From Natrinema thermotolerans DSM 11552 (GTDB lineage Archaea; Halobacteriota; Halobacteria; Halobacteriales; Natrialbaceae): 45,565 nt of DNA. Below, piece after piece: positions 33,271 through 37,091 of the stretch (positions within the stretch are counted from its first letter, which is position 1; each line of letters starts with the position of its first letter). The position numbers and the translations under genes are program-made. The stretch is from NCBI GenBank assembly GCA_000337115.1, contig AOIR01000058.1, positions 58,231-103,795 on the forward strand, read 5' to 3'. Under the pieces are notes generated by a model. That model saw only the letters and a list, made by a program, of their open reading frames with translations. It was not told where the DNA came from and made no database searches.

Positions 33271-33649
33271 CCTCAACTGAACACGTTGGTTGATCCGTCA
33301 CACGTTTCTCAACGATAAAGCGTTCGGACCACCGGCCGGTGCCGTCGGCGAACTGTTATGCGCCGGACACGACAGAGCCCCAACGGCCGGATCCGGGCGG
33401 CTCCGATACCGGGTACGCACGCACTTGGGGTTCGACGCGCCACCGAATCCTCCCGACCGGGCAGGCAATCCGGTACGTCATCACCGAGCGCGGGACCCGA
33501 GGTCAGTCGACCGTTCCCGCCGTGACGTGACAGGCCGTCACGCAGTCCCCGACGGGATATACACAAACGCGCATATAACTCTGGTCGATGGGGAGCTGAA
33601 GCACCACAAACACGGGGATTTTTATCGTCTCGGTGCCCTACGAACACCC
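33271..33649. promoter_or_regulatory. Divergent intergenic region before purF
   Basis: No gene is supported in these 379 bases. On the plus strand ATTTTTAT (33618-33625) is centred about 28 bases before the purF ATG at 33650, a leaderless-type promoter. Further upstream, TATACACA and CATATAAC (33560-33580) form an AT-rich patch. CGTGACG (33521-33527) and CGTCACG (33536-33542) make a 7-bp inverted repeat that could be an operator for purine control. Confidence 0.5.
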
Positions 33650-35161
33650 ATGACTGATGGGCGGGGCGAGACTCCCCGGCGAACAGGAATGACCGAAAAG
33701 TGCGGCGTCGTCGGCGTCTCACTCGACGGTCGGGACGCGGCACGACCGTTGTACTACGCGCTGTACGCGCTCCAGCACCGCGGTCAGGAGTCCGCCGGTA
33801 TCGTCACCCACGACGGGTTCCAGCAGCACAGCCACGTCGAAATGGGGCTCGTGGGTGACGCCTTCGGCGAGGGCGATCTCGACGAACTGACCGGCGCTGC
33901 GGGGATCGGCCACGTCCGGTATCCGACGGCCGGCTCGGTCGACTCCTCGTGTGCCCAACCGTTCTCCGTCTCGTTCAAGAGCGGCTCGCTCGGCCTCTCA
34001 CACAACGGCAACCTCGTCAACGCTGACGAGATCCGCGACGAACTCGCCGCTGCGGGCCACGCCTTCACCAGCGACGGTGACACCGAAGTCATCGCCCACG
34101 ACCTCGCGCGCAACCTCTTGGAGGAGGACCTCGTCCGCGCGGTCAAGCACACGATGGGCCGGATCCACGGCTCGTACTCGCTGACGATCACCCACGACGA
34201 TACCGTGCTGGGCGTGCGCGACCCACAGGGCAATCGCCCGCTCTGTATCGGGGAACTCGAGGACGGTTACATCCTCGCCTCGGAGTCGGCAGCGATCGAC
34301 ACGCTCGATGGAGAACTCGTCCGCGACGTGCGACCGGGCGAGCTGGTCGTCCTGCAGGAGGACGGACAGGGCTTTGACTCCTACCAGCTCGTCGAGAACG
34401 AGAACACCGCCCACTGCTTCTTCGAACACGTTTACTTCGCCCGTCCCGACAGCGTCATCGACGACACGCTGGTCTACGAGGCCCGCCGGAACCTCGGGCG
34501 CAAGCTCTGGGAGGAAAGCGGCGTCGAGACCGACGTCGTGATGCCGGTTCCCGACTCCGGACGCGCCTTCGCCTCGGGCTACGCGGACGCGGCAGGCGAG
34601 ACGACCGCCGACGGCGAGGCCCGCGACGCCGACGACGACGGCGTCGAGTTCGCCGAGGGCCTGATGAAGAACCGCTACGTCGGGCGTACGTTCATCATGC
34701 CGACCCAAGACGAGCGCGAGCGCGCGGTGCGGCTCAAGCTCAACCCGATCAAGTCGACGATCGAGGGCAAGACCGTCACGGTCATCGACGACTCGATCGT
34801 CCGCGGGACGACCTCGACCCAGCTCGTCCAACTCCTCAAGGACTGCGGGGCCGAGGCGGTCCACGTCCGGATCGGCGCGCCCGCGATCGTCGCCCCCTGT
34901 TACATGGGGATCGACATGGCCACCCGCGAGGAACTCATCGCCTCGGACAAGTCCGTCGGCGAGATCCGCGACGAGATCGCCGCCGACAGTCTCGCCTACC
35001 TCTCGACCGACGCCGTCGCCAACGTCCTCGGGAAAGAGCGCATCGACCTCTGTCTGGGTTGTGTGACCGGCGAGTACCCCTACGACATCGAGGGCGAGGA
35101 GACCGACCGCGACGTCAGCCGGCCCGACGTCGGCGGCCAGCAGCTGCCCGCGGACGACTAA
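33650..35161 (+). CDS. purF: Amidophosphoribosyltransferase PurF (Fe-S type)
   Basis: First enzyme of purine synthesis: it transfers ammonia from glutamine to PRPP. The 503-residue protein has a 17-residue propeptide before the nucleophile C18 (EKCGVVGV), the glutaminase domain (18 to about 255), and the phosphoribosyltransferase domain with PRPP loop VTVIDDSIVRGTTS (376-389). C256, C417, C468 and C471 sit at the four Fe-S ligand positions of Bacillus-type PurF (HCFFEHVYFARPDS, APCYMGID, CLGCVTG). An acidic insertion (about 314-335) splits the domain before KNRYVGRTFI. The promoter spacing favours ATG 33650; ATG 33689 would leave only a four-residue propeptide. Confidence 0.96.
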   Translation: MTDGRGETPRRTGMTEKCGVVGVSLDGRDAARPLYYALYALQHRGQESAGIVTHDGFQQHSHVEMGLVGDAFGEGDLDELTGAAGIGHVRYPTAGSVDSSCAQPFSVSFKSGSLGLSHNGNLVNADEIRDELAAAGHAFTSDGDTEVIAHDLARNLLEEDLVRAVKHTMGRIHGSYSLTITHDDTVLGVRDPQGNRPLCIGELEDGYILASESAAIDTLDGELVRDVRPGELVVLQEDGQGFDSYQLVENENTAHCFFEHVYFARPDSVIDDTLVYEARRNLGRKLWEESGVETDVVMPVPDSGRAFASGYADAAGETTADGEARDADDDGVEFAEGLMKNRYVGRTFIMPTQDERERAVRLKLNPIKSTIEGKTVTVIDDSIVRGTTSTQLVQLLKDCGAEAVHVRIGAPAIVAPCYMGIDMATREELIASDKSVGEIRDEIAADSLAYLSTDAVANVLGKERIDLCLGCVTGEYPYDIEGEETDRDVSRPDVGGQQLPADD

Positions 35162-35165
35162 CGAA

Positions 35166-35390
35166 ATTTTGCGCTGCGCTCTGAGCGGACGGTTGCGCCA
35201 TCAGCGCAACCGTCCGCTCGTCACTCGACAAAATCTTCAAAAGAGCGCTGTGCGCTCTTTTGGACAGCGAGGGACCTCCGGTCCCTCGAGCAGGCGGTGC
35301 GAAGCGCCGCCGACCTCGCGGGATCGAAGATCCCGCTCGGTTTCGATCAAAAGCACTCCTCCTTCCCCTCCGCTCGCTTCGCTCGCTCCG
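35166..35390. repeat. Chain of consecutive hairpins downstream of purF
   Basis: At least five inverted repeats follow one another with almost no spacer. They are 35183-35219 (16-bp perfect stem, loop CATCA, itself enclosed by ATTTTG/CAAAAT at 35166-35171 and 35229-35234); 35239-35261 (10 bp, loop TGT); 35268-35288 (9 bp, loop TCC); 35293-35311 (8 bp with one G-T, loop GAA); and 35318-35336 (8 bp, loop GAA). The direct repeat CGCTCGCTTCGCTCGCTC (35371-35388) follows. Four of the five loops are exactly three bases. It lies in a gap with no intact gene. It may be an RNA-level structure, a terminator array or a dispersed genomic repeat. Confidence 0.85.
35183..35219 (+). terminator. 16-bp perfect hairpin after purF
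   Basis: GAGCGGACGGTTGCGC and its exact complement GCGCAACCGTCCGCTC are separated by five bases, starting 22 bases after the purF stop codon. It is the longest perfect stem I saw in the window and the likeliest purF 3'-end structure. The next hairpin (35239-35261) ends in TTTT, which fits a haloarchaeal T-rich terminator. Confidence 0.6.
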
Positions 35391-35507
35391 GGTCAATCGT
35401 CGGCCCGCTCGTGCCGACGGCACTCGCGGTCGTAATCGGTGTCCTCCTGCTCCCTGTCCGTGGAATGCGTTCGGGCACTCCGTCGAGAGCGTTCCGATCT
35501 CGACAAC

Positions 35508-35600
35508 CTACGCGATCAAGAGCCAGTTCACCCCGAACGGCAGGATGACGCCCCACGGGATGTCGACGGTGTTCGGCCGCTGCCGGAACGCCCAAGCCGG
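35508..35600 (-). pseudogene. Short gene remnant encoding a membrane-protein C-terminus
   Basis: Reading the minus strand back from a TAG at 35508-35510, the frame is open for 30 codons and ends FRQRPNTVDIPWGVILPFGVNWLLIA. This looks like the last part of a small membrane protein (a polar stretch, then a Trp-anchored hydrophobic helix). A stop codon lies just upstream (35601-35603) and there is no ATG or GTG start. I take it as a possible remnant of a lost gene; chance cannot be excluded. Confidence 0.3.
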
Positions 35601-35619
35601 TCACCGGTCGACTCGAGGG

Positions 35620-35882
35620 ATGCCGCTATTGTGGTTCGAGACGACGCTGTCGCTGTCGGACGAGGAAACGACCGCTCTCGCCGATCGGGTGACGGAGCTG
35701 GACACCGACGGGATGGTGACGACGGCGGGTCACGTCGCGGTCTCGATCCGCGATCGCGGGCGGGCCGAGACCTCCACGACCTCCACCTCGAACGCGTCGT
35801 CGACGGCCCGCTGCTCTTTCTGAGGGCAGCGACTAACGGTCGTGAAAGGCGGCCGGCCGGGTACCGATTCGTCGGGGGCTGA
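35620..35882 (+). pseudogene. Truncated, frameshifted tautomerase-family (MIF/4-OT-like) gene
   Basis: The ATG at 35620 opens MPLLWFETTLSLSDEET, with the N-terminal Pro2 of the tautomerase superfamily, and continues to TAGHVAVSIRDRGRAE. The frame then runs into unrelated Ser/Thr-rich sequence and stops at 35821. A one-base shift around 35767-35770 restores LHLERVVDGPLLFLRA, the expected next strand. The shift point abuts a 9-base tandem repeat (GACCTCCAC twice, 35769-35786). After about 35840 the rest of the domain is missing. The gene is therefore broken twice, by frameshift and by truncation, just before the convergent Get3-like gene. Confidence 0.7.
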
Positions 35883-35885
35883 CGC

Positions 35886-37091
35886 CTACCGCAGACAGGC
35901 CGCGACGACCTCGAGCATGCCCTCGCCCCGGATCTCATCGGCGAACAGGGGGACCCGCCGAACGTCGGTGCCGCGGAACAGTTCCTGTGCCTCCGCGAGG
36001 GCGCTCTGCTGGACGTCCCAGCGGCGCTGACAAAATTCGCAGTCGTCCAGATTCGGCTGCAGGAACTCCCCGTGAACGTCGTCGGTGACGTTCGACAGGG
36101 GCTCCATCACGCGGTTGACGACGACGGTGCCGACCGGAATCCCGAACTCCTCGAGTTGGGCCCGCAGGCGCTTGGACTCGAAGACACTCATCTCCTCGGG
36201 GACCATGACGATCCGGAAGTCCGTCCGCGCGGGGTCGCGCAGGGCCGCCCGGAGGCGCTCGATGCGTTCGCGAAGCACCTCCAGGTCCTCGAGGTCGTCG
36301 CCGTCGTCGGGCGCGTCGCCGCCGAACATCCCCTTGACGCCCTCGAGCATCCCGCCGAGGCGCTGGCGGAGTTTCATGATGCGGCCCATCATCGTGTCCA
36401 TGATCTCGGGGAGTTGCAGGAGCCGGAGGGTGTGACCGGTCGGTGCCGTATCGACCACCACGCGCTCGAACCGCGGGTCGTCCATGTACTCGAGCAGGAG
36501 TTGCATGGCGGCGGCCTCGTCGGCACCGGGCATCGCGCCGCCGAACAGGGCATCCATCGGCGACTCGCCGCCGAGCATGTCGCCGAGGCCACCGAGCGGC
36601 CCGCCCGCGTCCCCCTCGCCGCCGGGGAAGGGCGAGCCGCCCGCCTCGCCGCCAGCGAAGGGGTCCGTCTCGTCCGCACCCTCGCCCGCGCTGAAGGGCG
36701 TCTCTCCCTCCTCGAGGGCGGTTTCGGGGTCGATCTCGGCCGCGTACAGCGGGATATCGTCCCGGATTCGGCCGGGCTCGGCCGGGATGTCGGTCTCGAA
36801 CGTGTCGGACAGCGAGTGTGCGGGGTCGGTCGAGACGACCAGCGTCGACGTGCCGCCGCGGGCGCTGTCCAGCGCCGTCGCGGCCGCCATGGTCGTCTTC
36901 CCGACGCCGCCTTTCCCGCCGTAGAGGACGTAGTCGGGGCCGTCGATCGGCTCGTCGGACGGCTCGACGTCGACGGTCTCGCGCTCCTCGTCGCCGACGG
37001 AGTCAGTCGGCGTTACCTCGATGGTGTGGTCGCCGTCGTCGCTTTTCCCCCGCTCCTCCTCGTCGACCGGTTCGACGTCGATGCCGCTCAT
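35886..37091 (-). CDS. Get3/ArsA-family ATPase (TRC40 type)
   Basis: ATPase of 401 residues. A 50-residue acidic N-terminal extension precedes the deviant P-loop GGKGGVGKTT (58-67); STDPAHSLSDTF is switch I and DTAPTGHTLRLLQLPE the A-loop region. A Gly-rich stretch (about 133-190, FPGGEGDAGGPLGGLGDMLGG) and a helical insert rich in Met, Leu and Arg (MMGRIMKLRQRLGGMLEGVKGM) resemble the client-binding insert of Get3/TRC40. CEFC near the C-terminus is the zinc-type CxxC pair. It may target tail-anchored membrane proteins; an arsenite pump role is less likely because no ArsB or arsenic gene is nearby. Start at ATG 37091. Confidence 0.88.
   Translation of the reverse strand: MSGIDVEPVDEEERGKSDDGDHTIEVTPTDSVGDEERETVDVEPSDEPIDGPDYVLYGGKGGVGKTTMAAATALDSARGGTSTLVVSTDPAHSLSDTFETDIPAEPGRIRDDIPLYAAEIDPETALEEGETPFSAGEGADETDPFAGGEAGGSPFPGGEGDAGGPLGGLGDMLGGESPMDALFGGAMPGADEAAAMQLLLEYMDDPRFERVVVDTAPTGHTLRLLQLPEIMDTMMGRIMKLRQRLGGMLEGVKGMFGGDAPDDGDDLEDLEVLRERIERLRAALRDPARTDFRIVMVPEEMSVFESKRLRAQLEEFGIPVGTVVVNRVMEPLSNVTDDVHGEFLQPNLDDCEFCQRRWDVQQSALAEAQELFRGTDVRRVPLFADEIRGEGMLEVVAACLR

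Follow-up and report, generated by a model that had tools for sequence, protein, structure and literature searches.

A dispersed, base-paired hairpin element at gene ends of Halobacteriales and its possible role as a two-sided transcription end

The window, a 45,565-nt stretch of the 3.9 Mb genome of Natrinema thermotolerans DSM 11552 (G000; C58:58231-103795), carries a chain of hairpins directly after purF, raising the question of what such a structure is and what it does at the end of this gene. A sequence-only reading had described it as five stems of 16, 10, 9, 8 and 8 bp within 170 bases (interval 35166-35390), and had offered a mobile or dispersed palindromic element, a structured RNA or a terminator array as possible explanations.

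The hairpin chain and the element that contains it

Five consecutive hairpins are indeed present just past the purF stop codon, and direct reading also bore out that four loops have three bases, two of them GAA. The second stem has 11 bp instead of 10, and the chain covers about 155 bases (35183-35336). In a listing of the window's 25 longest inverted repeats, the longest perfect one is the 16-bp stem of the first hairpin, and RNA folding of the chain gives z = -6.7 on the + strand and -7.3 on the - strand, with 0 of 200 shuffles folding as well. A coding origin was rejected, in agreement with the first description, since the ORFs overlapping the element are mechanical and its stems covary between copies.

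The chain is the variable interior of a larger gene-end element, which at purF spans about 35162-35439. The interval first described starts 4 nt inside this element (35162) and ends too early, as the right arm of stem P2 and hairpin P3 reach ~35427-35439. The purF copy has P1, five hairpins, P2 and P3, while a further hairpin found in many other copies, P4, is missing. A four-hairpin module, starting with H2, sits within the right arm of P1 and splits it. The parts are as follows:

35159-35161, + strand: purF stop codon TAA; the purF ORF (33290-35161) comes from a mechanical listing, and the element starts at the next base
35162-35172, + strand: P1 left arm CGAAATTTTGC, with a T4 tract within about 10 nt of the stop codon; seen by covariation in 179 copies
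35183-35219, no strand assigned: H1, a 16-bp perfect hairpin with the 5-nt loop CATCA, from the sequence and the inverted-repeat listing
35227-35235, + strand: upper half of the P1 right arm, GACAAAATC, facing TTTTGC, recognised by comparison with one-hairpin copies
35238-35262, no strand assigned: H2, an 11-bp perfect hairpin with the loop TGT, first of the four-hairpin module
35268-35288, no strand assigned: H3, a 9-bp hairpin with the loop TCC
35293-35311, no strand assigned: H4, 8 pairs including one T/G wobble, with the loop GAA
35318-35336, no strand assigned: H5, an 8-bp hairpin with the loop GAA
35341-35348, + strand: lower half of the P1 right arm (TTTCG) and the ATC linker
35349-35366, - strand: conserved core AAAAGCACTCCTCCTTCC, read on the - strand as GGAAGGAGGAGUGC-UUUU, the 3' arm of P2 followed by U4
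35367-35391, - strand: P2 tip, GC-GA-GC-GAA-GC-GA-GC on the - strand
35393-35411, - strand: conserved anchor TCAATCGTCGGCCCGCTCG, containing the other P2 arm (about 35392-35404) and the start of P3
35407-35427, - strand: P3 hairpin, the element ending near 35439

Regarding the surroundings, the convergent gene beyond the element (35886-37091) encodes an ArsA-like ATPase, judging by its sequence, and the stretch between them (35441-35885) resembles what is left of a membrane-transporter gene, also convergent, the end of which can be recognised at the same place in relatives (L235, L237, L243). An internal loop between P1 and the first hairpin (35173-35182 with 35220-35226 in the window) is conserved and present in all copies. 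It reads KCTGC / TCG, or GCAG[A/C] / CGA on the - strand, and resembles part of a kink-turn; this reading was given up, the second G-A pair not being conserved.

Copies, range and base pairing of the family

Searching the own genome with the segment returned 49 pieces, 18 of them at E<1e-2, including two that are the window site itself, and a covariance model of 60 positions matches 21 sites there. The window copy has about 20 relatives in this genome. The purF copy, matched at C58:93579-93638 (E 6.7e-22), carries the core AAAAGCACTCCTCCYTCC and the anchor TCRGTCGTCGGCC with a paired P2 (35349-35411), and its P1 arms lie directly after the gene end. The tightest shared motif, AAAAGCACTCCTCCYTCC at 35349-35366, has this one site in the window with 0.00 expected; a slightly longer form of the core has 18 sites in the genome, compared to 1 for the reversed control, and is present in 33 of 61 relatives. 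Among relatives with names, those sharing the core are mostly Natrialbaceae such as Natrinema, Haloterrigena and Halovivax.

The set used for comparison comprises 209 non-redundant copies, all with P2 by construction, as they were collected via their core. An invariant AAAAGCACTCCTCC core comes after P1 and is followed by P2, P3 and often P4; the full order is the P1 left arm (e.g. CGAAATTTTGC), at least one variable hairpin, the P1 right arm, AT[CGT], the core, P2 and P3. Many copies continue with GCCTGCCCTYCCCCG, hairpin P4 and a closing CTCCCGGCC, the leading block of P4 being found in 116 of 195. Across the 209 copies, the AAAA of the core, which on the - strand is the UUUU following P2, hardly varies. 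In other families the core drifts (AAAAGCCTCC, AAAAGGATTCG), with AAAA and P1 with its T tract kept. Altogether, the covariance model matches 154 of 342 Halobacteriales genomes, in 44 of 89 genera and seven families, and all 19 positives in a phylum-wide sample of 247 genomes belong to this order, none lying outside it.

Several assignments were tried and set aside. No match of the window to Rfam reached a gathering threshold, only sub-threshold noise being found at E<=5 (at best SymR, with 22.9 bits against a threshold of 61), and membership in an Rfam family was rejected. A virus-borne repeat was likewise rejected, with 0 exact core matches in IMG/VR viral contigs; seven plasmid records carry partial matches. 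P4 is not an independent repeat, as its leading block occurs within element copies in the own genome, where two unrelated-looking matches with one mismatch were found outside them. Matches to the anchor alone at C50:31491, C5:156300 and C62 do not resemble elements, C59:293233 is a decayed copy at most, and C50:134074 and C33:101414 are true variants. Near the anchor match on the own-genome contig C62, GATGTGTATAAGAGACAG stands beside N (L339) and is a Nextera adapter left in the assembly. Two tandem cores about 90 nt apart, possibly a partial duplication, occur at G016:C28:210609/210699 and C50:9309/9402. Two elements also stand close together in opposite orientation in G035 (L211) and as pairs in G061, G115, G118 and G226; the two at L211 each stand behind a gene of their own, the arrangement expected if both convergent genes carry one.

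The base pairing of P1 and P2 is real. When the P1 left arms were located by context alone in 179 copies, pairing not being used, the second pair of this stem was GC in 117, AT in 30, TA in 15 and CG in 13 (98% Watson-Crick compared to 49% after shuffling), and the tenth was paired in 96% compared to 57%, with the arms up to more than 200 nt apart. In P2, the Y15-R2 pair is CG in 105 copies and TA in 92, with 12 exceptions, position 19 is GC in 105, CG in 85 and TA in 11, and position 20 is TA in 113 and CG in 81. These counts overstate the number of events, as related copies are not independent. For a gap-free alignment of 31 sequences, the named structure reaches a covariation score of 0.49 against 0.18, with 0 of 500 shuffles as high, and slid versions of it reach 0.17 at most. 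Therefore, own genome and relatives yield many copies with compensatory changes, ruling out a single copy devoid of covariation and bearing out the earlier idea of a structured element.

Gene ends and exchange of modules

The element is multicopy, tightly linked to gene ends and in most cases oriented the same way with respect to the upstream gene. P1 starts 0-5 nt past the stop codon in 93 of 128 copies, both being located automatically, and several of the remaining copies are wrong automatic gene choices. Upstream genes in the own genome, named from sequence, include EngB, two thermosome subunits, TbsP, the PolD large subunit, PurF, PAN and GyrB, to which C-termini add L10e, TFS and an Lrp-type regulator. 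The SRP RNA gene (L005, L067) also has the element directly behind it, as do tRNA-Ala, -Arg and -Met genes in other families; as there is no stop codon at these sites, the element marks gene ends and not stop codons as such. By rough gene calls, the upstream gene is sense-oriented in 65 of the 73 cases called. A convergent gene comes next in 57% of these, compared to a background of 42%, and same-direction gaps measure at least 130 nt, which places the element outside tight operons. One copy separates gyrB from a following gene of the same direction.

Some of the same genes carry the element in different families. An HD-domain protein, an alcohol dehydrogenase, the Lrp/TrkA locus, thermosome and PAN are followed by it in Natrialbaceae and other families, as are EngB and TFS, judging by C-termini. 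Six shared element-bearing genes were seen, compared to about one among 60 expected by chance, an estimate based on 51 Natrialbaceae gene families with the element and an assumed 3,500 genes per genome. A bias to strongly expressed genes could contribute to this excess.

Besides this stability of position, the interior of the element changes quickly. When G000 and two close relatives were compared over 25 orthologous pairs, the median identity was 96% for the gene before the element, 74% for the P1 block, 66% for P2 and 70% for P3, and the P1 block falls below 75% in 13 of the 23 pairs with a gene identity of at least 90%. For 8 of these 13 divergent blocks, reading the table by eye, a match of at least 90% to the block of the partner stands at a different gene; the automatic count of 10 includes two matches to the ortholog of a third genome. 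At purF, five hairpins in G000 are replaced by one short hairpin in G026 and by the H1 type alone in G014, while at the thermosome locus P1 is kept and P2 and P3 differ. Comparison of these sequences shows that hairpin modules are swapped between loci and that elements are internally reshuffled. The P1 interior of L249 (G002, purF) and L058 (G028) appears inverted, as if flipped between the arms, a pattern first thought to be frequent and reduced by a systematic count to 1 clear case in 179, a curiosity. In the own genome, after the SRP RNA (L004/L005), the multi-hairpin module of the window copy is found reversed within the P4 part of another copy.

Such modules common to different loci, together with the multicopy nature of the element and its patchy presence at a given gene, agree with a selfish palindromic element of the REP, MITE or SMR kind, inserting at gene 3' ends where it would be least harmful and spread by an enzyme. 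Several species have no element after purF, e.g. G012, G017, G022 and G023 (thus it is not essential there), and P1 is an inverted repeat internal to the unit. However, the orientation and the 0-5 nt spacing from the gene are fixed and occur without a common target sequence, the same genes are occupied in different families, and the core has no exact match in the IMG/VR viral contigs. An IS200/REP transposase was tried as a partner and showed no clear link, as the own genome has only 3 IS200-type (Y1_Tnp) genes, 126-133 aa in length; one is separated from a copy by the L10e gene, at a distance of about 0.75 kb. A selfish origin is accordingly considered improbable. As for the earlier proposal of a mobile or dispersed element, dispersal is confirmed and mobility is not shown, since copies stay at the same gene ends across genera, and some across families, and it is the internal module that changes.

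Strand of the fold and a possible two-sided transcription end

The most conserved part of the element has a preferred strand, which may act as RNA or as single-stranded DNA. On the + strand P2 contains TC/TC mismatches, which on the - strand become tandem G-A pairs within 5'-CGACGACYGAY.../...GGARGGAGGAGUGC-UUUU, and hairpins with 2x2 loops show TC/TC 260 times on the + strand compared to 15 GA/GA (i.e. 260 GA/GA on the - strand). P2 is more stable on the - strand in 207 of 209 copies (mean -18.9 compared to -12.3 kcal/mol), and unconstrained folding of the whole - strand of the window copy recovers the hand-drawn P2 helix. In this copy R2 is an A opposite T, and the next anchor letter is an A opposite C, giving G-U on the - strand. 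Two adjacent positions in the P2 tip carry TC/TC in 24 sequences and mostly paired letters in 20, as though GA/GA and Watson-Crick pairs were interchangeable there. The sense-strand alternative, a 3'-UTR element protecting or processing the 3' end of the mRNA, as exonuclease-blocking REP hairpins do, would explain a position directly after stop codons, and P1 and the hairpins would fold in a read-through mRNA; nevertheless, P2 and P3, the most conserved parts, fold well on the other strand, making this explanation quite improbable.

The variable hairpins behave differently from P2, as their loops have no clear strand preference (GAA 38 compared to TTC 33). The closing pair is C-G in 214 of 230, and different hairpins with perfect stems of at least 7 bp number 306 in total. 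A wobble test for the strand in the variable hairpins was not decisive, G.T and A.C mismatches being near-equal (28 and 39). The loops, closing pairs and mismatches are compatible with an element acting at the DNA level between transcription units, such as a cruciform, a topology site or a nucleoid protein site, but the GA motifs of P2 and P3 are strand-asymmetric and the orientation is tied to the gene, leaving little room for it.

We favour, with an even chance of being right, a bidirectional transcription-end module that is reshuffled by recombination. The features of two terminator types are present, one on each strand: on the - strand a stable P2 stem directly followed by UUUU, as in intrinsic-type terminators, and on the + strand the T tract of P1 near the gene, as in archaeal T-stretch termination, with four Ts in most copies. 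The proposal of two ends draws on these features, P1 T4 near the gene and P2 running into U4, together with in vivo termination data from Haloferax, where termination was 95% at a T stretch and 59% at a hairpin (PMC7237163). Sense transcripts leaving the gene would meet the P1 T4 within about 10 nt of the stop codon. Transcripts coming from the opposite side would fold P2/P3, a stable hairpin containing tandem G-A pairs, before reaching UUUU and a second U4 in P1, and would thus stop before turning antisense to the gene; such protection is the likely reason for the strongly conserved - strand fold. The variable hairpins would be tolerated provided they pair, and recombination or gene conversion between copies would keep replacing the P1, P2 and P3 modules. 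As a description of the chain, a terminator array is incomplete, since it is the strand antisense to the gene that forms the conserved P2/P3 fold, and the chain is the variable interior only.

Several points weigh against the transcription-end reading. The T tract of P1 has only four Ts, the copy after gyrB is followed by a gene of the same direction, and the element is missing after the purF of some species. Moreover, P1 covaries along its whole length, so that some molecule must span both of its arms, which is the main difficulty, as simple termination at the first T4 needs no such molecule. Covariation across the whole unit would suit a discrete noncoding RNA of about 280 nt transcribed from the - strand, with P1-P4 forming a single RNA with its own function, in trans or antisense, and a 3' end abutting the stop codon of the neighbour. 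The coherent - strand fold, in which tandem G-A pairs are numerous across P2 and P3, would fit it as well. Against this RNA, no conserved promoter-like block was seen beyond P4, P4 itself is absent in many copies, and one would have to assume some 20 genes for antisense RNAs in each genome, all of them at gene ends; we judge it unlikely.

How archaeal transcription ends and how convergent transcripts are kept apart is partly understood, T stretches and the nuclease aCPSF1 being among the known parts. To this the transcription-end module would add a recognisable folded unit that stands at core-gene ends throughout an archaeal order, is absent from Rfam and comes in hundreds of natural variants, with direct predictions of which strand stops and which pairs matter. 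The rapid exchange of cassettes at orthologous sites, with flanking genes about 96% identical, amounts to a natural experiment, and some of the intergenic hairpins of the CTCGCTTCGCTCG type in haloarchaea may be accounted for by the element. A wider proposal, which is possible and still rather doubtful, is that antisense helices with tandem G-A pairs ending in UUUU guard housekeeping, tRNA and SRP genes from antisense transcription throughout the order, while their cassettes are exchanged and their stems re-pair.

No description of the family was found in the searchable literature, which left out subscription journals and most preprints, and a prior description is possible for that reason; several known systems are related in part. 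Like the REP/BIMEs of enterobacteria, which are dispersed extragenic palindromes often placed just past genes and in arrays (RepRanger survey, PMC12306157), the gene-end element is an extragenic palindrome in many copies. Unlike them, it is larger (~280 nt), has a covarying outer stem and a fixed spacing and orientation to the gene end, also follows tRNA and SRP genes, and has no transposase partner that could be found. The copies listed also showed no noticeable shared GTAG-type tetranucleotide at the foot of a short palindrome, a feature of REP/BIMEs. The PATEs and SMRs of Haloquadratum (PMC3119063) are likewise short multicopy palindromic elements of haloarchaea without a transposase gene; PATEs have no terminal inverted repeats and resemble IS605 ends, and SMR-A (~110 bp) inserts into PATEs and IS605 elements. 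For neither of them is a lock to gene 3' ends or covariation described (PMC3119063). Similarly, the terminators of Haloferax volcanii have a T tract just past genes, and hairpins before some RNA 3' ends terminate there in vivo (PMC7237163), but these motifs are short, whereas the gene-end element has an order-wide covarying core and a conserved fold on the antisense strand. In bacterial terminators made of hairpin clusters, several hairpins stand side by side no more than 80 nt from the stop codon, a similar layout, yet no sequence conservation is reported near it (PMC8355165), in contrast to a core common across an archaeal order. Membership in the REP, PATE, SMR or MITE families is thus not established, and the element may well work most like a terminator built from a dispersed repeat.
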